DNA of 29,921 nucleotides from a virus, in IMG/VR virus record IMGVR_UViG_3300007540_000063, positions 1-29,921 of that record; one strand, given 5' to 3'. Each line of letters starts with the position of its first letter. Positions within the stretch are counted from its first letter, which is position 1. Below the pieces are notes generated by a model. The model had not been told where the DNA came from. It did not search any database and worked only from the letters and a program-made list of their open reading frames with translations. Below are positions 64 through 29,276 of this stretch, piece by piece. The position numbers were made by a program, and so were the translations under genes.

Positions 64-648
64 TTAACGCAATCTAGCTTGTTTTTCCACAAAGCGCACA
101 CTTGCTGCAATTTGTTGGTTAGCGGCTTCACTAATTTCTAGCAACTGCGCTAAGGTTAAAAAGCGCGGTTCGCGAATGTACTGCACTAATTTTTCACGGC
201 TAGTCACAAACTGGTCGTCATGTATCGGTTGCGAGCTCACAATTCTGCCTGCTTCCCATGTAAACATCATGCGCTGACGCTCAAACGGGTGAGTAGTGCG
301 GCTGAGTTTAGCTTGAGCTTCGTTAAAGGCATTAATAAAGTTTATTTTTAATTGTGCTGCTTTAGCGCCGGTAAAGCCCATCACTAAAAACATAAAGCCG
401 TCTTTGGTCATTTGGTAGATCTTTGAATCACGATTTACTGCCCCAGCCCGCAGTTTTACTGCGTGAACTCGAAAATGAGTTGACGTGAATTCAATGGGCG
501 CATCGGTGATTATTTCGTCAATTTTACGTAAGACGTTGTAATGCTTTTTGCCAAAATAATCGGCCACAACTTGTGAGTTGGTAAAGGTTTGTTGGTCGTT
601 AATAAAAACGAGTTGCGTAGGGTAATTTTGATTTAATGATGCAGACAT
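64..648 (-). CDS. rha: Rha family phage regulatory protein
   Basis: 194 residues. The N-terminal two thirds match the Rha/pRha family: an N-terminal segment with FTNSQVVADYFGKKHYNVLRK, then YQMTKDGFMFLVMGFTGAKA and a following KINFINAFN helix. Rha proteins are phage regulators of lysogeny or lysis; the mechanism is poorly defined. A start 11 codons further upstream (681) is open, but the ATG at 648 has a good AGGAG at 656-660 with 7-nt spacing, so I use it. The gene runs against the flanking tail genes, ends at a bidirectional terminator and is preceded by a P4/C4-like regulatory RNA, so it looks like an independently controlled accessory gene. The C-terminal third is not recognised. Confidence 0.85.
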   Translation of the reverse strand: MSASLNQNYPTQLVFINDQQTFTNSQVVADYFGKKHYNVLRKIDEIITDAPIEFTSTHFRVHAVKLRAGAVNRDSKIYQMTKDGFMFLVMGFTGAKAAQLKINFINAFNEAQAKLSRTTHPFERQRMMFTWEAGRIVSSQPIHDDQFVTSREKLVQYIREPRFLTLAQLLEISEAANQQIAASVRFVEKQARLR

Positions 649-699
649 AATGAAACTCCTGTGATCGTGAGTATTCACCAACCAAGAAGGCTAAACTTG

Positions 700-776
700 G
701 GTGATGAGCTGAACAGGATTAGCCTTACCGCTCACAGGAAGCGGCGCACCGAAGTGCTCCCATCCAGCCCACCATA
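700..776 (-). ncRNA. P4 cI / P1 C4-type antisense immunity RNA in the rha leader
   Basis: Read on the minus strand, GGTGGGCTG (765-773) pairs over all 9 positions, with two G-U pairs, with CAGCTCATC (703-711). Enclosed are a GCAC-TTCG-GTGC hairpin and a CCGCT/AGCGG hairpin, followed by an unpaired AAGGCTAATCC segment (716-726). This is the shape of the phage P4 cI RNA and of C4 antisense RNA from P1/P7: one long stem, internal hairpins and a single-stranded targeting segment. C4-type RNAs are known near antirepressor-class genes, and rha follows here. The boundaries are approximate, since such RNAs are cut from a longer transcript. Confidence 0.7.
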
Positions 777-860
777 GTAGAAGTGCGCTGAATCACGCAA
801 TAAAAAGCCAGCTATAAAGGCTGGCGTCAATTGCGCCTGTGAATTGCGAGAGGCTAATCC
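716..860 (-). promoter_or_regulatory. Complementary targeting segments seqB-like (716-725) and seqA-like (851-860)
   Basis: The RNA segment AGGCTAATCC at 716-725 (minus strand) is perfectly complementary over 10 nt to GGATTAGCCT at 851-860 (minus strand), upstream in the same transcript. A shorter complement, TTAGCCTT, lies downstream at 686-693. In P4, seqB of the cI RNA pairs with seqA upstream and seqC downstream to force early termination; the order here is the same. Function is inferred from this match. Confidence 0.6.
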
Positions 861-911
861 CGGCACTGGATTTTGCCAGTACCCAATCAGTATCGCCCCT
901 CTTAGGCGCAT
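732..911 (-). CDS. Possible short leader ORF reading through the attenuator
   Basis: A 59-codon frame on the minus strand runs from an ATG at 909-911 (or a GTG at 864-866) through the terminator and half of the structured RNA, ending at 732. Short peptides spanning such leaders (Ash or Icd-like, P4 kil-like) are known in enterobacterial phages. However, the ATG lies between the proposed -35 and -10, and no clear ribosome site is seen. A competing frame at 793-999 also ends just after the hairpin. Low confidence that either is translated. Confidence 0.2.
   Translation of the reverse strand: MRLRGAILIGYWQNPVPGLASRNSQAQLTPAFIAGFLLRDSAHFYYGGLDGSTSVRRFL
802..825 (-). terminator. Leader terminator (attenuator) upstream of rha
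   Basis: On the minus strand GCCAGC, a 7-nt loop and GCTGGC are followed by TTTTTATT, a typical intrinsic terminator. It sits between the rha leader promoter and the structured RNA and just downstream of the seqA-like segment. Transcription of rha therefore has to pass it, which fits P4-style control by premature termination. Confidence 0.75.
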
Positions 912-918
912 TTGTCAA
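889..918 (-). promoter_or_regulatory. Leftward promoter for the rha leader transcript
   Basis: On the minus strand a perfect TTGACA (913-918) is followed after 18 bp by GATACT (889-894). Transcription would start near 882, run through a short ACTGG/CCAGT hairpin and the seqA-like segment, then meet the terminator at 802-825 and the structured RNA. Confidence 0.55.
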
Positions 919-11781: not shown

Positions 11782-12852
11782 TTATTTAATGGCATCCTTA
11801 TCATGCAATCGTTTCGGAAACAGCTCAGTGTAAACCTGCCACAGCGTATTAATATTACGGTGGCCAGTTACCTGGGCAACCTCGTCAATAGTGTAACCCT
11901 TTTCAAATAGCCGGCTAGCACCTTCACGCCGCAAATCATGATAGCGTAAATCCTCAATACCTAACGCATTACGTACCCGCTGAAACCCTGCAGCAACTGA
12001 CCTTTCATTAAACGGGAATACCCGCTCATCATTCCGTGGTTGTTTTTGTAAAATCTCCCACGCCCCACCCAGTAACGGCACTAGCATGTGATTACCCGAT
12101 TTTTTACGAGGGTCTTTACGGTCACGCACAATCACCGCTTTTTGTGCTTCATCCACATCGACCCATAAAATCCGGCACATCTCACCAACCCGCATACAAC
12201 TCAATATAGAGAAGTCGAGTAAATCAATATACGGAATATGCGCAGCTTGTTTATTGGCGCGTTCTGCTAACCCAACCTTTAACTTTTCAATTTCAACTGA
12301 AGTTGGCCTACGCGAACGCCGCGCAGATTTAGCGATGAGGTTTTGATTATAGAGCGCATCATAAGCATCAATCACCGGGCTTTGGGATACATCATAACTA
12401 AAATTAGACTTAGCGATTTTTAGCAACCAACGGATCACACTCACATCGATGTTGATTGTCGCAGGCCCTGTGCCAGATTCTTTTCTACTTTGACAATGTT
12501 CAATCACATCTTGAGACTTTAGTTTATCAATTCTGACTTTGGCTATTTCACAATCACCCAGTAAACGAATACAAAAACGCTTAGACCGACCAATAGTGCT
12601 ATCGATATTTGGGTCAGCCAATGTTTTATCGATTATCTCACCAAGAGTAGGGGTCACCGTTTCGTCTTGAGCAAACCCGTCTTTTTCAATTTCAACAATT
12701 CGTTCTTTGCCCCAAGTCTCAGCAGGTAACTTTTTGGTAAAAGTTCTTTGCTCCGTGTATAATACGATGCCTTTTTTCTTAACACGAATTAAGCAGCGAT
12801 ACTTACTTGTGCCGTCAGCTTTATCACGTTTTTGAATACTGTAAGACGCCAT
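11782..12852 (-). CDS. int: Tyrosine site-specific integrase (dusA-type attachment)
   Basis: 356 residues, close to the usual ~350-400 for phage integrases. The N-terminal ~60 residues (SIQKRDKADGTSKYRC, then TWGKERIVEIEKDG) look like an arm-binding domain, and residues ~70-160 like a core-binding SAM-like domain. The catalytic set is complete: R221 (SCMRVGEM), a Lys in RDRKDPRKK (~246-251), H305-x-x-R308 (YHDLRRE), H331 (TGHRN) and Y341 (QVYTEL). It runs against the tail genes. Immediately upstream of its start are GGTTCCC repeats and a core encoding the DusA N-terminus, so the site used is very probably the 5' end of dusA. Confidence 0.95.
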   Translation of the reverse strand: MASYSIQKRDKADGTSKYRCLIRVKKKGIVLYTEQRTFTKKLPAETWGKERIVEIEKDGFAQDETVTPTLGEIIDKTLADPNIDSTIGRSKRFCIRLLGDCEIAKVRIDKLKSQDVIEHCQSRKESGTGPATINIDVSVIRWLLKIAKSNFSYDVSQSPVIDAYDALYNQNLIAKSARRSRRPTSVEIEKLKVGLAERANKQAAHIPYIDLLDFSILSCMRVGEMCRILWVDVDEAQKAVIVRDRKDPRKKSGNHMLVPLLGGAWEILQKQPRNDERVFPFNERSVAAGFQRVRNALGIEDLRYHDLRREGASRLFEKGYTIDEVAQVTGHRNINTLWQVYTELFPKRLHDKDAIK

Positions 12853-14632: not shown

Positions 14633-16063
14633 TTATGCTGCTTTTGCAATTTGTTTGGATTGACCTGGCAAGTTAGCCCTTACCAGTGCTTCTGATAGTT
14701 GCGGCGGTACGCTGTTGCCGACACGGGCGACTTGTTGTTTCTTGGTCGATTTACCGTTGTAATCACTAATGATGTAATCTGAATTAAAGCCCTGACATGC
14801 AAATAATTCATGTGGTTCAAGCATACGCAGGCCAATATCGACTATTTGATACGGTTCACCTTTGATGGTGACTAATCCAAAACGGTCATTGGTGGTGATG
14901 GTGTGCAGTGGTTCATCACATGCAACCCCGTCTTGCTCATTGCCGTAGTATTTAATGAAGAACGCTCGCACTTCGCCTAGGTGTAAACCGCCAGCGGTGA
15001 TGGTATGCGCGGGTTCGGTCATTTCAAAGCCGATGTTAGTGCCACGCATTTTGACCATGTGACTGGTGACTAATGCAAAGTGACCGCCTTTCACTTCTGC
15101 GCAGATAGTGCGTAACGGTTCATCTGCTGGCATGTTTCGTTGTGCGCTGGCATTTGCGCATTCAGTGATAAATGGTGTTATTACTGCTTGTGCCGGTGCA
15201 ATAAATGGGTTGGCACAATCTATAACGAATTTTTGAATACCTTTGGCGATTCGCTTCATGGTGTTTTCTGCCAATGGTCTTTTACGTCCAAATATTGATT
15301 TACATGGAATAGTCCAATCAATACATTCTGCAGCTGTTCGCCACGGCAATAGCTTACCCGCTTTTACTAATTCGCTGTTGGGTGCCCCGTGTGTTGGTTG
15401 TGGCCAAACTATTGGCTGGTTGTCGCAACGGGCTATCATAAAGAAGCGTTTGCGGATTGTTGGTGAGCCAAAATCACATGCACGCATTTCACGCCATTCG
15501 ACTTTATACCCAAGGCCTTTAATTAATTTTGCGGTATCGAGCAAGCCAAGCGTGTCAACGCATTCGGCAAGTGCTGGATGCTCTGCGTCTATTCCATTGC
15601 TGAGCATTTTCACAAATGCATCAAAGGTTTCGCCTTTACGGTCTGGGCAAGGTCGCATTGAATCGGTTACCTGGCACTCAATTACTGGTCCCCATGTTTT
15701 AAATTCTTCGACATTTTCGAGCATGATTATTTTTGGGCGGACTTTCATTGCCCAACGAATAGCTACCCAAGCAAGGCCGCGGATCTCTTTGTTTACTGGC
15801 TTGCTGCCTTTTGCTTTTGAAAAGTGCTTACAGTCGGGGCTAAACCATGCCAAATCAACTGGCTTACCTGCAGTGGCCTGTACTGGATCGATATCAAATA
15901 CCGATTCGCAATAATGACGTGTGTCGGGGTGATTTGCCTTGTGCATGGCAATGGCATCTTGGTCATGGTTGATAGCAATATCAACACTGCGACCGATTGC
16001 CCAGGCGATACCGGTACTCGCACCACCACCGCCTGCGAAGTTATCAATAATTAAACCATTCAT
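14633..16063 (-). CDS. DNA (cytosine-5) methyltransferase
   Basis: 476 residues. It carries the C5-methyltransferase motifs: motif I DNFAGGGGAS (7-16), motif IV FSPDCKHFSKAKG with the catalytic Cys at ~78 (the PDC variant common in phage enzymes rather than PPCQ), motif VI ENVEEF (116-121), motif VIII RKRFFMIARCD and motif X GNSVPPQLSEALV. The segment between VIII and X should be the target-recognition domain. It transfers a methyl group from S-adenosylmethionine to cytosine in DNA. No restriction partner is nearby, so it most likely protects phage DNA or alters regulation. The start overlaps the previous stop as ATGA. Confidence 0.93.
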   Translation of the reverse strand: MNGLIIDNFAGGGGASTGIAWAIGRSVDIAINHDQDAIAMHKANHPDTRHYCESVFDIDPVQATAGKPVDLAWFSPDCKHFSKAKGSKPVNKEIRGLAWVAIRWAMKVRPKIIMLENVEEFKTWGPVIECQVTDSMRPCPDRKGETFDAFVKMLSNGIDAEHPALAECVDTLGLLDTAKLIKGLGYKVEWREMRACDFGSPTIRKRFFMIARCDNQPIVWPQPTHGAPNSELVKAGKLLPWRTAAECIDWTIPCKSIFGRKRPLAENTMKRIAKGIQKFVIDCANPFIAPAQAVITPFITECANASAQRNMPADEPLRTICAEVKGGHFALVTSHMVKMRGTNIGFEMTEPAHTITAGGLHLGEVRAFFIKYYGNEQDGVACDEPLHTITTNDRFGLVTIKGEPYQIVDIGLRMLEPHELFACQGFNSDYIISDYNGKSTKKQQVARVGNSVPPQLSEALVRANLPGQSKQIAKAA

Positions 16064-20982: not shown

Positions 20983-21606
20983 ATGGCGTTGATAAAGTGT
21001 GATGAATGCGGAAAAGAGAAAAGCAGCGCGGCAAAGGCTTGCCCGCATTGTGGTAAGAGCCGAGATCATATTTCGTCAGGGGTAGTTTGGTTTGCAATTG
21101 CTGGGGTGATTGTGTTTTTTGTGGGTATTAATTTTGTAAATACAGCCGCTTTTAAAACCCAAAAAGCTGAACAGAAATTAATAGCTCCAGCCCTTAAAAC
21201 CTCTAATTATCGTAAACCCAGCCCAGAGAATTCACTTGAAGGCGTTACCGATTATATTGGTCGATTTAATGTTGATGTCGCGACAAAATATGATGTTGAA
21301 ATTAATAAGGCTGGGAATATTTTCATTGATAATGAAGATTATCAAGTGTCATTTGAGACCTTAGACAACGTTGTTACTTTTATTTCTATAGGCTTAAAAG
21401 GGGCCGAGCCTTGTCGGTTTGGCGAGAAAGTCTCAAATTATGATGACTACATTAGTTATTTAGGCTTAAAAACGGCAGACCTTAATATTCATCCTAACTC
21501 TACTAAGACCACTTTTCGCTACACTATCCCATCAGGAAAAGGAAGTATCTCTATCTTGTGCCCAAATTCAGGAGGGATGTTAACTCTTTACGTTAGACAA
21601 TCATAA
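20983..21606 (+). CDS. Zinc-ribbon single-pass membrane protein
   Basis: 207 residues with a very strong ribosome site (AAGGAGGG). A zinc ribbon (C6-x2-C9...C20-x2-C23) is followed by one membrane helix at ~34-51 (VVWFAIAGVIVFFVGINF), a linker, and a beta-rich outer domain of ~130 residues with a Cys pair. It is convergent with, and overlaps by 6 bp, the CI gene. It should be expressed in the lysogen, as rexAB and similar exclusion genes are. An exclusion role is an inference from position and architecture. Confidence 0.65.
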   Translation: MALIKCDECGKEKSSAAKACPHCGKSRDHISSGVVWFAIAGVIVFFVGINFVNTAAFKTQKAEQKLIAPALKTSNYRKPSPENSLEGVTDYIGRFNVDVATKYDVEINKAGNIFIDNEDYQVSFETLDNVVTFISIGLKGAEPCRFGEKVSNYDDYISYLGLKTADLNIHPNSTKTTFRYTIPSGKGSISILCPNSGGMLTLYVRQS

Positions 21607-22293
21607 AAGTACTGAATACCAAAACACTTTACCAATCACAGTGATTTGTTTTAGGTCATCACCTTCGTAGCGTTCGTCGGGCCATTCGTCTAGATTGAAG
21701 CTGCGAAGGCGCAAACCACCACCTGGTAATTTGTATAAGGTTTTAATGCGTAACATGCCATCGTGATTGATGGCGTACATTTTGCCGTCGATCACGTTAG
21801 TTTGTGAAGTGTCCACGCCCACTGTGGAACCATTGGGCAATACTGGCTCCATGCTGTTACCACTGACGCGAACACACGCGGCATTTGTAGGGTCTACGTT
21901 TGACTTGCGTAACGTTGATTTTGCAAAGCGTAATTTTGGCCCGTAAAAATGAGGCATTTCCGCTATGCCGTGTCCTGCGGCGAGTTCTACTTCCATGTAA
22001 AAAGGGATCTCTACTTCATCATCATTGAGTGGGGTATTACTGTCCCACGTTTCCATTGGGCCAGCCCATTCGGCGTTGCTGACTGGTTTGGGCTCGCTAC
22101 CAAACAATAACCAATCTGGCGAGCATTTTAATGCTTTTGCAAGTTTGTAAAGGTTTTCGCCCTTGGGGGCTGTGTCACCAGATTCCCATTGCGAAATAGT
22201 CACGCCAGATACTCCAACCTTTTTACTTAGCTGGATCTGGGTAAGTTTTATTAATTTTCTTCGCTCTTTTGAGCGTTCACCGAGTGTTTTCAT
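21601..22293 (-). CDS. CI-like repressor with LexA/S24 self-cleavage domain
   Basis: 230 residues. The N-terminal XRE-type HTH (residues 5-60, TQIQLSKKVGVSGVTISQWE) is joined by a linker to a peptidase S24 domain. Its elements are intact: cleavage site A106-G107 (ELAAGHG), catalytic S147 (SGNSMEP) and K184 (LRIKTLYK). It should bind the ATTTAAG-N4-CTTAAAT operators at PL and PR to keep lysogeny, and cut itself when RecA filaments form. One operator overlaps its start codon, which suggests autoregulation. The divergent Cro-like gene confirms the immunity arrangement. Confidence 0.93.
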   Translation of the reverse strand: MKTLGERSKERRKLIKLTQIQLSKKVGVSGVTISQWESGDTAPKGENLYKLAKALKCSPDWLLFGSEPKPVSNAEWAGPMETWDSNTPLNDDEVEIPFYMEVELAAGHGIAEMPHFYGPKLRFAKSTLRKSNVDPTNAACVRVSGNSMEPVLPNGSTVGVDTSQTNVIDGKMYAINHDGMLRIKTLYKLPGGGLRLRSFNLDEWPDERYEGDDLKQITVIGKVFWYSVLL

Positions 22294-25483: not shown

Positions 25484-25709
25484 GCCTGTTTTGAGTAAAC
25501 CCGCTACTCAAAAAGAACGTTTGTGTCGTGTGTTGAGTCAAGGTCGGTTTTTAACCCTGTATGAGATTCAGCAAGAGTGTTTTGAGCGATTTGGTGTGCA
25601 TGATAGCGAGTGTGCGTTAAGTGCGCGTTGGCGCGAGTTGCCTGTTTCGGTTAAGCAAAAGCGCCGCCGTGATAAGTGTCAGGCGTGGGAATACAGGTTG
25701 GTGGCATGA
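25476..25709 (+). CDS. Small winged-helix-like protein
   Basis: 77 residues from the ATG at 25476, which has AAGGAG 9 nt upstream; a GTG at 25467 is in frame but fits worse. It has a RLCRVLSQGRFLTLYEIQQE helix pair, WRELPVSVKQKRRRDKCQ and a strand, consistent with a small winged helix. It overlaps both neighbours. Possibly a DNA-binding accessory of replication or of the recombinase; unproven. Confidence 0.65.
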   Translation: MNKPVLSKPATQKERLCRVLSQGRFLTLYEIQQECFERFGVHDSECALSARWRELPVSVKQKRRRDKCQAWEYRLVA

Positions 25710-26965
25710 GTATGGCGGCATCAGGTGTTGAAGTGGGAAAGCTAAACGATGCGGCGTTACGTCGTTGGTTACGTGCTGGGGTTATTCGCGATTATCGTGA
25801 TCCGCAGTTTCCTGAAATTCGTTTACGTGCTGCTGCTGGTCGAACGCGGGCGAGTGTTCATTTGGTGTTGAATGAAAACGGTAAGACGGTTTGGCAAAAG
25901 GTGGGTACCTGGCCAAGCATGTGTATTAAAACCCTATGCGCTGATTTGCCTGTGATGTTGGCTAAACGCAGTGGCGGCAATATGGTGACTGGCCAGTTTG
26001 ATACGGTCGGCAGTTTGCTTGAGTGGTACCAGGAGCATATTGAAACTAACACGACGTTAAGCAAAAGTTGGCGCAGCAATATTAAGTCGATGATCAAGTG
26101 TCATTTGTTGCCTCGTTTGGCTGATGTTCGTTTGGCTAATGTGAGTTTTATTACTGTTGATGGCGGTTTAGTTAAGCCGATGTTGGTTGAAGGGTTTTCA
26201 CCTAAATACATTCGCGAGGCCGTTAATAAGCTTAAAGCTGTGTTTGCTGCGGCGTCAAAGTTGCGTTTGATTAGTGCTAACCCTTTAGCCGGTTATCGAG
26301 TGACGTATTCAATTAAGGTGGCTGATGTGGTTGATACTCGCTTGTTTGAGTCGGATTTGGCGGCTTTGTTTACTCGCTTAGGTGAGGTGGTGATGCCGGT
26401 GCAGATGTTGTTTGTGTTGATGATGATGTTCGGTACTCGCATTAATGAGACTCGTTTGGCTCGTTGGGAGCACTTTGCAGGGGATTATTGGGTGATACCC
26501 GCAAGCAATGCCAAGAACAAGCAGGAACATCGGGTACCTATGACTGATTCGGCTAAGGCGTTAATTCAGCATTATCGTAAGTGGCAGCTTAAGCATGTTG
26601 GCAAACGCTCGTTTTTGTTTCCTGGCAATGTTGGTGCTATTTCAATCCGCAGTGCTCATGAGTGGCACACTCAAATTCGCTTTAAACACTTCACGAGTCA
26701 TGATTTACGTCGTTTGTTTCGCACCATCGTTGCTGACTTAGGTGTCGATACCATGATTGGTGAACGTCTGCTTAATCATTCATTGCCTGTTTTGCTGCGT
26801 AAGTACGTTAAATCGACCTTAGATAAGGGCATGAGCCAAGCGTTAGACCAATATCACCAGTATTTAATTTATCGTGGGTTTTCTTCTGTTGCGCCCGAGA
26901 TATTGCCTAGATCGTCCGTTGAAAGTGAGAACGGTCAAACCAAGAGTGCAAGCGGTTGGCTGTGA
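25706..26965 (+). CDS. Second tyrosine recombinase, in the replication operon
   Basis: 419 residues from the ATG that overlaps the previous stop. The N-terminus (residues ~10-90, FPEIRLRAAAGRTRASVHLV, WQKVGTWPSM) resembles the DUF4102-type domain of P4-like integrases. A core-binding domain follows, then a complete catalytic set: R245 (FGTRINE), a Lys near 270-272, H332-x-x-R335 (SHDLRRLF), H358 (LNHSLP) and Y367 (RKYVKS). There is no adjacent attachment site, and it is locked into the early operon, so integration is not its obvious job. It may resolve replication products or rearrange DNA. Confidence 0.85.
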   Translation: MSMAASGVEVGKLNDAALRRWLRAGVIRDYRDPQFPEIRLRAAAGRTRASVHLVLNENGKTVWQKVGTWPSMCIKTLCADLPVMLAKRSGGNMVTGQFDTVGSLLEWYQEHIETNTTLSKSWRSNIKSMIKCHLLPRLADVRLANVSFITVDGGLVKPMLVEGFSPKYIREAVNKLKAVFAAASKLRLISANPLAGYRVTYSIKVADVVDTRLFESDLAALFTRLGEVVMPVQMLFVLMMMFGTRINETRLARWEHFAGDYWVIPASNAKNKQEHRVPMTDSAKALIQHYRKWQLKHVGKRSFLFPGNVGAISIRSAHEWHTQIRFKHFTSHDLRRLFRTIVADLGVDTMIGERLLNHSLPVLLRKYVKSTLDKGMSQALDQYHQYLIYRGFSSVAPEILPRSSVESENGQTKSASGWL

Positions 26966-27595: not shown

Positions 27596-28024
27596 ATGGA
27601 CTTTTTTGGAATTGGTAATGCAATCAAAGCATGTGCAAAGATTTATTTTAGAAGTGCTATTCAAACTGGAAGAACAACAGCATTGATTCATAGCTTAAAG
27701 GAGGGTGACAGAGTTTATTTTAGAAAGCATGAGGAAGCTAAGTGGTTTGAACGCCGTCTTAAAGACTTTGGTGTTCAAGGTGTTGATTGCCTAGCTTGGT
27801 CGAAAATAGATGTTGGTGTTAATTTTAGGCAAGGAAAAGCTAAAGGTAATGCTGTATTGGACCACATGTTAATTGAAGAAATGTACCTGAAGGCAATTGA
27901 TGATTGCAGTCGTAATATCAAAGGGATTGAAGATGAATTAAGCACAAGGTCTAGCGTTGTTGAAGCTGAACCCACAAGAAGATGCAGACCAGATATTGAT
28001 ATGAGGAGGTGGTTTGTTGACTAA
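27596..28024 (+). CDS. Small protein with P-loop-like GRTT motif
   Basis: 142 residues from the ATG in the shared linker. SAIQTGRTTALIHSLKEGDRVYF resembles a degenerate Walker A followed by a strand. The later KGNAVLDHMLIEEMYLKA could stand for a Walker B (hydrophobic run, then Asp/Glu). The classical GKT/S is missing (GRTT), so nucleotide binding is uncertain. It might be a shortened relative of phage NTPases. Confidence 0.5.
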   Translation: MDFFGIGNAIKACAKIYFRSAIQTGRTTALIHSLKEGDRVYFRKHEEAKWFERRLKDFGVQGVDCLAWSKIDVGVNFRQGKAKGNAVLDHMLIEEMYLKAIDDCSRNIKGIEDELSTRSSVVEAEPTRRCRPDIDMRRWFVD

Positions 28025-28178
28025 ACACTGTAAGCGTTGCAACAAGGCAACCAATCACCGAGCGCTGGAACGTTTAGGTTTCATGTCTCAATGTGTGGTT
28101 GCCATTGTTACTGGGTTTAAGAGCGACTTAAGAGAGTTTAAGTTTGAGTGTGTTGAATGTGGTACACAATCGAAATAG
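28017..28178 (+). CDS. Zinc-ribbon protein, duplicate copy A
   Basis: 53 residues from a TTG at 28017 with AGGAGGTGG just upstream, overlapping the previous stop. HCKRCNK at the start and CVECG near the end are a split zinc ribbon, with a hydrophobic middle (FMSQCVVAIVTGF). 143 of its base pairs recur in copy B with one mismatch. Confidence 0.65.
   Translation: MTKHCKRCNKATNHRALERLGFMSQCVVAIVTGFKSDLREFKFECVECGTQSK
28023..28165 (+). repeat. 143-bp direct repeat, copy A
   Basis: Matches 28721-28863 at 142 of 143 positions; the single difference is G (here) versus A in the CACCGAGCGC/CACCGAACGC stretch. The repeat covers most of the zinc-ribbon gene. Confidence 0.9.
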
Positions 28179-28188
28179 TGAGGTGAGT

Positions 28189-28401
28189 ATGAGCGGCTTA
28201 AAAGTGAAAATTCTTAAAGTAAAAGATAAAGATTTATGTGTATACGGTGACTACTTAAATGAAAGTGCAGCAGATGAGTTTGTTAGTGGTTCTTATACTC
28301 ACATCCAGCATGTAGAGGATAACTCTATAGCCGAGGCCGAAATTACTGGGCAGATGCCTGCAGGATGGCCAATGGTACTAATAGGTGAATGTGTTAACTA
28401 A
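28189..28401 (+). CDS. Small acidic protein
   Basis: 70 residues from the ATG of an exact copy of the shared linker. LKVKILKVKDKDLCVYGDYL is strand-like and the rest is acidic (YTHIQHVEDNSIAEAEITG). No known family. It lies between the two zinc-ribbon copies. Confidence 0.55.
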   Translation: MSGLKVKILKVKDKDLCVYGDYLNESAADEFVSGSYTHIQHVEDNSIAEAEITGQMPAGWPMVLIGECVN

Positions 28402-28715: not shown

Positions 28716-28876
28716 TGAGGAAACACTGTAAGCGTTGCAACAAGGCAACCAATCACCGAACGCTGGAACGTTTAGGTTTCATGTCTCAATGTGTGGTTGC
28801 CATTGTTACTGGGTTTAAGAGCGACTTAAGAGAGTTTAAGTTTGAGTGTGTTGAATGTGGTACCGAATCTAAATAG
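28715..28876 (+). CDS. Zinc-ribbon protein, duplicate copy B
   Basis: 53 residues, ATG at 28715. It differs from copy A at the start (MRK versus MTK), at A/T in NHRTLE versus NHRALE, and at the end (GTESK versus GTQSK). It has AAAGGTG upstream. The two copies should have the same activity. Confidence 0.7.
   Translation: MRKHCKRCNKATNHRTLERLGFMSQCVVAIVTGFKSDLREFKFECVECGTESK
28721..28863 (+). repeat. 143-bp direct repeat, copy B
   Basis: Partner of the copy at 28023-28165, 698 bp downstream in the same orientation. Recombination between them would delete or duplicate the 698 bp between. Confidence 0.9.
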
Positions 28877-28886
28877 TGAGATAGGT

Positions 28887-29276
28887 ATGAATATTGTTTT
28901 TTGGATTTTGTTTATCTTGTCGTGTTTATCGACTTTAATTTTTATGTTTGGAGTTTTATTTCCCCCTAAACTTGGCCGTAAATTGCCAGTACCTCCAATG
29001 CCTGACTGGTATGGGAAAACTGGGAGTTCTTGCGTTAATTCTAGTCCTGAGTTGATTGAGTCTAACAGTGAGGTGAGTATGACAAATAGGCATAGTAAGT
29101 ATTGGTTTGATAAACCGCAGTGTGAGGCTGATCTTGAAGGTGTAATGCTAACTGGTATTCGTGTTATTAGAAAATCAGAGGCAGTTGATATAATGAATGA
29201 TCAGCATGAGCAGATTGATGCATTAACTCAAGATAAACACACAATCATCACTAATCACCTTAACGTTCTATCTTAG
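28887..29276 (+). CDS. Membrane-anchored protein, apparent fusion of two small genes
   Basis: 129 residues from the ATG in a variant linker. The N-terminus is a membrane helix (NIVFWILFILSCLSTLIFMF), then a Pro-rich linker. At residue 65 another complete linker with its own ATG (29079-29081) lies in frame. The part after it (MTNRHSKYWFDKPQCEADLE to the end) could also be made alone as a 65-residue protein. Confidence 0.5.
   Translation: MNIVFWILFILSCLSTLIFMFGVLFPPKLGRKLPVPPMPDWYGKTGSSCVNSSPELIESNSEVSMTNRHSKYWFDKPQCEADLEGVMLTGIRVIRKSEAVDIMNDQHEQIDALTQDKHTIITNHLNVLS

Follow-up and report, generated by a model that had tools for sequence, protein, structure and literature searches.

A rha gene close to one end of a 29,921-nt viral record (IMGVR_UViG_3300007540_000063, positions 1 to 29,921; referred to here as the window) is preceded by a segment whose minus strand can fold into a compact RNA lying antisense to tail genes. 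This arrangement raises the questions of what type of RNA is encoded there, which gene it acts on, and whether its location is an exceptional one. We scanned the whole window with Rfam 15 and detected two matches above cut-off, C4 and isrK, which adjoin each other on the minus strand. The C4 antisense RNA (RF01695) matched minus-strand positions 779-697 over its full length (model positions 1-87 of 87 in the covariance model; 65.2 bits, cut-off 45, E 1e-10), bearing out the initial annotation, which had proposed a covariance check of this kind. The elements of this RNA are as follows:

697-779, minus strand: C4 antisense RNA (RF01695 match and predicted fold), with a closing stem of approximately 774-758 paired with 702-718
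771-773, minus strand: GGU, putative RNase P-generated 5' end of C4, by analogy with the GGW motif of PMC5320573
719-726, minus strand: open segment a' (AAGGCTAA), pairing with a2 (8 nt) and with a1
732-739, minus strand: loop b' (TCCTGTGA), pairing with b2 (8 nt) and with b1 (7 nt)

Folded alone, the C4 stretch reached a minimum free energy of -38.8 kcal/mol (z -3.6 compared with dinucleotide shuffles), a stability equalled in 0/200 shuffles. The predicted fold displays the features that define the C4 family, namely a long closing stem, two hairpins (GCAC-UUCG-GUGC and CCGCU/AGCGG) and an open a' segment. Both hairpins had been recognized in the initial annotation, as had the pairs G773-C703 through G765-C711 (two of these nine are G-U); the closing stem, described there as nine pairs long, extends to about 17, and the segment AAGGCTAATCC, described as open throughout, is free only in its AAGGCTAA portion, with UCC paired in the stem. 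The fold was kept when 27 C4 stretches were analysed by RNAalifold (the window, Rha-linked viral loci, phiV10, a Vibrio phage, Gifsy-1, APSE-7 and P1), with 27 predicted pairs and both-side changes in 15 of the 27, support that leans towards the C4 fold because the rows were selected through their C4 matches. It is near certain that the RNA at 697-779 is a C4-type antisense RNA; RNA switches of this type have been known since phage P1, and the window provides a further instance rather than a novel type.

The gene that follows and its leader contain these elements:

64-648, minus strand: rha (194 aa), encoding a Rha-family phage regulator and putative antirepressor (PF09669, TIGR02681 and PHROG matches), with its ATG at 648-646
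687-694, minus strand: a2 target site in the rha leader (TTAGCCTT), complementary to C4 a' and co-varying with it in 43/43 loci
657-664, minus strand: b2 target site in the rha leader (TCACAGGA), overlapping the Shine-Dalgarno and co-varying with C4 b' in 39/43 loci
656-660, minus strand: rha Shine-Dalgarno (AGGAG), overlapped by b2

The assignment of the gene to the Rha family in the initial annotation was upheld by matches to Phage_pRha (PF09669; 86.1 bits, cut-off 29.9) and TIGR02681 (81.1 bits), in searches that used the frame 64-651, one codon longer than the listed gene; its PHROG matches comprised one Rha-like regulator family and several families annotated as anti-repressors. Inspection of the sequence also shows, at about 17-51, an inverted repeat with T-runs, a putative terminator that could end the rha transcript.

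Exactly two complements of 8 nt connect C4 with the rha leader: a' (AAGGCUAA) complements a2 (UUAGCCUU) at 694-687, and the b' loop (UCCUGUGA) complements b2 (UCACAGGA) at 664-657, directly on the rha Shine-Dalgarno. Two or more complements of at least 8 nt occurred in only 2/2000 shuffled leaders, supporting the suggestion of the initial annotation that the RNA is directed at rha. Both shapes to which that annotation had likened the RNA, P4 cI and P1/P7 C4, are fair as descriptions of the fold; in the layout of its targets, with b2 on the Shine-Dalgarno, the RNA follows P1 C4. Searching the window for a second C4 target, we found a and b 7-mers paired at a spacing of 70 nt or less only in isrK, in the rha leader and in the opposite strand of the C4 gene itself. 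The pairing of C4 with the leader did not emerge from a nested co-fold (-46.6 kcal/mol, equal to the sum of the parts), because these contacts are of the loop-loop kind, which that program cannot represent.

The region upstream of C4 carries further components, on which the initial annotation had been silent, as it had been on the C4 target sites:

889-918, minus strand: putative sigma-70-like promoter of the isrK-C4-rha transcript, TTGACA-18 nt-GATACT, matching 10/12 consensus positions
802-882, minus strand: IsrK-type RNA with a1/b1 copies of the C4 target (RF01394, full length, 57.6 bits, cut-off 50)
851-860, minus strand: a1 site in isrK (GGATTAGCCT), complementary to C4 a' over 10 nt
836-842, minus strand: b1 site in isrK (TCACAGG), complementary to C4 b' over 7 nt
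807-825, minus strand: Rho-independent terminator ending isrK (GCCAGCCTTTATAGCTGGC followed by TTTTT), the last stem of the isrK model

The complete cassette therefore reads, 5' to 3' on the minus strand, promoter, isrK, isrK terminator, C4, a 48-nt leader, Shine-Dalgarno and ATG. Promoter-like sites identified by consensus scanning were no more frequent than expected by chance (3 found, compared with 3.4 expected in shuffles), so that the consensus score alone would be insufficient; our acceptance of the promoter at 918-889 is due solely to its conservation among loci, nearly all related ones having the TTGAC -35 element upstream of isrK at a constant distance. Between the -35 and -10 elements of this promoter we observed an imperfect inverted repeat, GCGCC(T)...GGGGC (window 895-912), which is kept at this position at many loci (L002-L017, L028-L040 and L059-L062) and could be a candidate operator for a phage repressor. 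A 68-aa frame at 793-999 overlapping isrK had no PHROG match and was regarded as a chance frame, and the protein encoded at 1024-1530, adjoining the cassette, had no Pfam or PHROG match.

The a1 and b1 sites form a pair of C4 complements (10 nt and 7 nt) equalled in 2/2000 shuffles, and pairing between C4 and isrK was predicted by the nested co-fold (-71.7 against -60.5 kcal/mol). When the 241-nt stretch comprising isrK, C4 and the leader was folded as a single molecule, isrK again paired with C4 (-103.6 kcal/mol, z -6.9). Such a strong fold would also be expected if isrK and C4 formed an attenuator acting only in cis, toggling between two folds of one mRNA from which C4 is never released, akin to the isrK-orf45 leader of Gifsy-1, which self-folds and for which alternative structures A and B were described on a single transcript (PMC4825925). 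We consider this explanation improbable: an approximately 80-nt processed RNA arises from the equivalent Salmonella segment (PMC4825925), processed C4 RNAs are known in Acinetobacter (PMC5320573), and at one Shewanella holmiensis locus (L060, upstream of 4869) the C4-rha unit has no isrK match upstream. The complements between C4 and the leader are still present at that locus, making it a natural experiment on the need for isrK.

The equivalent Salmonella segment can be placed within the same families. Gifsy-1 (L079, 395-580) carries a full-length isrK match (79.3 bits), followed by matches to c4-a1b1 (48.1 bits) and C4 (69.0 bits) in Rfam. This C4 match, together with the position and size of STnc1160 (~80 nt, processed), indicates that STnc1160 is most likely a C4 RNA.

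We next asked how common this arrangement is among relatives of the gene. A Rha protein search yielded 57 viral and 17 genome loci, the nearest of the latter in Shewanella. Of 70 Rha relatives scanned, C4 exceeded the cut-off in 49, isrK in 45 and both in 43, and C4 preceded rha in all of the closest relatives (22/22). Rha is thus a routine client of C4, and the claim of the initial annotation that a C4 controlling a rha gene within tail genes, outside any antirepressor operon, is an unusual setting does not hold. The contrast drawn there with antirepressor operons is likewise not supported: this Rha, a putative antirepressor, matches anti-repressor PHROGs, and antirepressor-like genes are the usual targets of C4; the genes downstream of C4-type cassettes elsewhere are of the antirepressor types ORF6N, Bro-N, ANT and Rha. 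At a further relative, in Vibrio phage 10N.286.54.F9_PE001 (L078, 2534-3804 and 4003-4946), the isrK-C4-rha cassette adjoins three genes with the annotation PD-T4-9, a defence system.

To examine whether RNA and target change together, the C4 of each of 43 distinct loci was compared with its own leader and with all other leaders. A fit of at least 7 nt for a' was found in 43/43 cognate C4-leader pairs compared with 11.2% of non-cognate ones, and for b' in 39/43 compared with 13.3%. The cognate fit was reached in none of 2000 permutations for either a' or b', in a test that does not remove shared ancestry. The a' word itself varies widely among loci (AAGGCTAA, GTACTAA, GTCTCAA, GTACGAA, TTTCCAC and others), with identical words reappearing in distant Rha lineages and different ones carried by close lineages, a distribution that, judged from these sequences, would be hard to explain by ancestry alone. 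As a change in the RNA words is accompanied across loci by a change in the target words, sequence could be used to predict immunity groups. The same co-variation bears on the idea that the cassette is a decayed remnant, an inherited structure that is neither made nor used now. In favour of decay, the window is a fragment. Against it, the promoter, the two target pairs, the terminator and the reading frame of rha show no damage, and C4 and leader words co-vary among loci, making decay a very improbable explanation.

It is highly probable, in our assessment, that isrK, C4 and rha together make up a self-contained immunity cassette of the P1/P7 C4 type, and that this cassette runs antisense to the tail operon of a temperate phage. 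From the established elements (RNA families, structure, complementarity and co-variation across loci) we infer a course of transcription, processing and in-cell pairing, a direction of control, and roles for IsrK as a sponge and for Rha in acting on a repressor. A constitutive promoter at 918-889 would drive the isrK-C4-rha transcript, with much of the transcription halting at the isrK terminator to produce a short IsrK RNA. Read-through would generate the isrK-C4-rha message, from which C4 would be excised, by analogy through RNase P cleavage at GGU 773, as an RNA of about 77 nt as in other C4 RNAs. The released C4 would then pair through a' with a2 and through b' with b2. The b2 duplex would mask the rha Shine-Dalgarno, and Rha would consequently be produced neither in the lysogen nor from any superinfecting phage sharing this specificity. 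Binding of C4 by the a1/b1 sites of IsrK would relieve the block on rha, and Rha would in turn act against the repressor of lysogeny, for which the CI-like S24 protein at 21601-22293 is the probable candidate.

With regard to the direction of control, repression of rha by C4 in the lysogen is very likely. In P1, ribosome binding was found to be blocked by b' of C4, with specificity provided by a', following processing by RNase P (reviewed in PMC5320573). A decoy role for IsrK in lifting this repression is plausible. Activation in trans by IsrK is known only for Gifsy-1, where it increases translation of the antirepressor-like anrP ~140-fold and induces the prophage (PMC4825925). However, extra STnc1160, the C4 equivalent in Salmonella, strengthened rather than weakened IsrK-dependent growth arrest (PMC4825925), a result at odds with IsrK being a simple decoy of C4.

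A mode of action closer to that of P4 CI would place the main effect at transcription, with pairing to isrK and to the downstream sites stopping RNA polymerase early and the Shine-Dalgarno block being secondary. The terminator at the end of isrK and the folding of the entire leader with isrK and C4 paired (z -6.9) are compatible with this mode, C4 and isrK profiles also detect P4 CI and seqA relatives (PMC10111431), and STnc1160 was likened to P4 CI by the authors of the Gifsy-1 study, a paper in which a term search finds no "C4 RNA", "phage P1" or "Rfam" (PMC4825925). On the other hand, b2 lies on the rha Shine-Dalgarno and the fit of b' there is kept in 39/43 loci, which termination would not need. 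Termination and Shine-Dalgarno blocking can coexist, as they do in P1. We regard the P4 CI-like mode as rather unlikely to be the principal one, as the layout of the cassette appears to fit Shine-Dalgarno blocking better than termination through seqA/seqC.

The Shine-Dalgarno-blocking cassette proposed here is defined in full by sequence, its target sites can be tested base by base, and phage relatives are available in Shewanella genomes. In these relatives the cassette is antisense to the tail operon, with the tape-measure gene on one side and the major tail protein gene on the other; in the window itself only the tape-measure side of the tail operon is visible. In phage phiV10, similarly, a comparable isrK-C4 cassette, whose regulator is a Bro-N "anti-immunity protein", is antisense and adjoins the tail fibre gene; given these cases, a position in the tail region is not unusual. 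Elsewhere in the record we observed two phage-type integrases within 30 kb, at 11782-12852 (minus strand) and 25676-26965 (plus strand), one of them directly after the tail genes; two adjoining elements may possibly be present in the record. Downstream of the second integrase lies a 175-nt direct repeat (28018-28192 and 28716-28890, 95%), and a short leader, AATAGTGAGGTGAGT, occurs in four copies (27575, 28168, 28421 and 28866), mostly directly before an ATG, ahead of small frames. The frame at 14633-16063 (minus strand) is a putative DNA cytosine methyltransferase, as judged by eye from its sequence.

At two of the loci examined, a different RNA family was found near rha. sRNA-Xcc1 (RF02221) occurs directly ahead of rha, in the usual place of C4, in L046 (2860-2944), and upstream of an isrK-C4-rha cassette in L033 (1429-1514). 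This RNA was previously described as trans-acting and linked to virulence (PMC12189769), and was reported upstream of symE in integron cassettes, with its mechanism unexplained (PMC12444791). We assembled 29 distinct sRNA-Xcc1 loci (L046, L033 and L082-L110), 27 of them from 369 genomes, and found that a variable 3' segment of the RNA is complementary to upstream sites and to the downstream leader or Shine-Dalgarno. Among these distinct loci, an upstream complement of at least 7 nt was present in 27/29 cognate comparisons compared with 26.6% of non-cognate ones, and a downstream complement of that length in 21/29 compared with 16.0%; the cognate totals were reached in 0/5000 permutations, upstream or downstream. 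We put forward as a testable proposal, suggested by these complementarities, that sRNA-Xcc1 may have a C4-like role with a two-site target logic. If true, sRNA-Xcc1 would act locally, as an antisense RNA guarding whichever gene comes after it (rha, symE or others), as opposed to being a trans-acting virulence RNA.

These observations could be combined into a broader model, to which we give an even chance. According to it, isrK and C4 form a two-RNA toggle, in which IsrK is a built-in decoy of C4 (through a1/b1) that switches the antirepressor on; STnc1160 of Gifsy-1 is a C4; the a'/b' words serve as interchangeable specificity tags, by which phages fall into immunity groups, and are carried by Rha cassettes across Gammaproteobacteria; and sRNA-Xcc1 is a second, differently folded RNA obeying the same two-site logic. 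The cassette of the window also links the P1 C4 and Salmonella IsrK literatures, in which one cassette goes under two names, and suggests how C4 repression ends.

Parts of this arrangement have been seen before. The c4-a1b1 motif is listed beside C4 (PMC2864571), and this listing, PMC10111431 and the annotations of APSE phages indicate that the pairing of the C4 and isrK families was already known in part. In APSE phages (e.g., LR794147) an isrK-C4 tandem, with C4, isrK, a' and b' already annotated, precedes an antirepressor-type gene; that gene is of the Bro-N type, and C4 is noted in LR794147 as antisense to no transcript of the phage. In phiV10, as in the window, isrK-C4 stands before a regulator gene and is antisense to the tail-region genes on its flanks, although the regulator is of the Bro-N type and the specificity words differ. 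Gifsy-1 shares with the window the order isrK, C4-type RNA and antirepressor-like gene (isrK-orf45-anrP; PMC4825925). Its gene is of the ORF6N rather than the Rha type and adjoins the antiterminator Q instead of a tail operon, and a 45-codon frame was reported across its C4 segment. The P4 CI RNA with seqA and seqC resembles the cassette in RNA shape and flanking sites, but acts by transcription termination in a satellite, whereas the downstream site in the window lies on a Shine-Dalgarno.

The closest likeness in target layout is to P1/P7 C4, which shares with the window the RNA fold, the order promoter-a1/b1-C4-a2/b2-gene, sites of 7-10 nt and the location of b2 at a Shine-Dalgarno. The P1 record is annotated as P-a1-b1-c4-a2-b2-icd-ant1, and in the P1 sequence C4 has complements of 8 and 7 nt in the leader, and two more, each of 7 nt, upstream. 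In P1 as in the window, a2 and b2 lie ~30 nt apart. The window differs from P1/P7 in that the element upstream of C4 is an entire isrK RNA that ends in a terminator of its own, its regulator carries a Rha domain instead of ANT, and its C4 covers the start of rha directly, whereas in P1/P7 an icd frame is coupled to ant.
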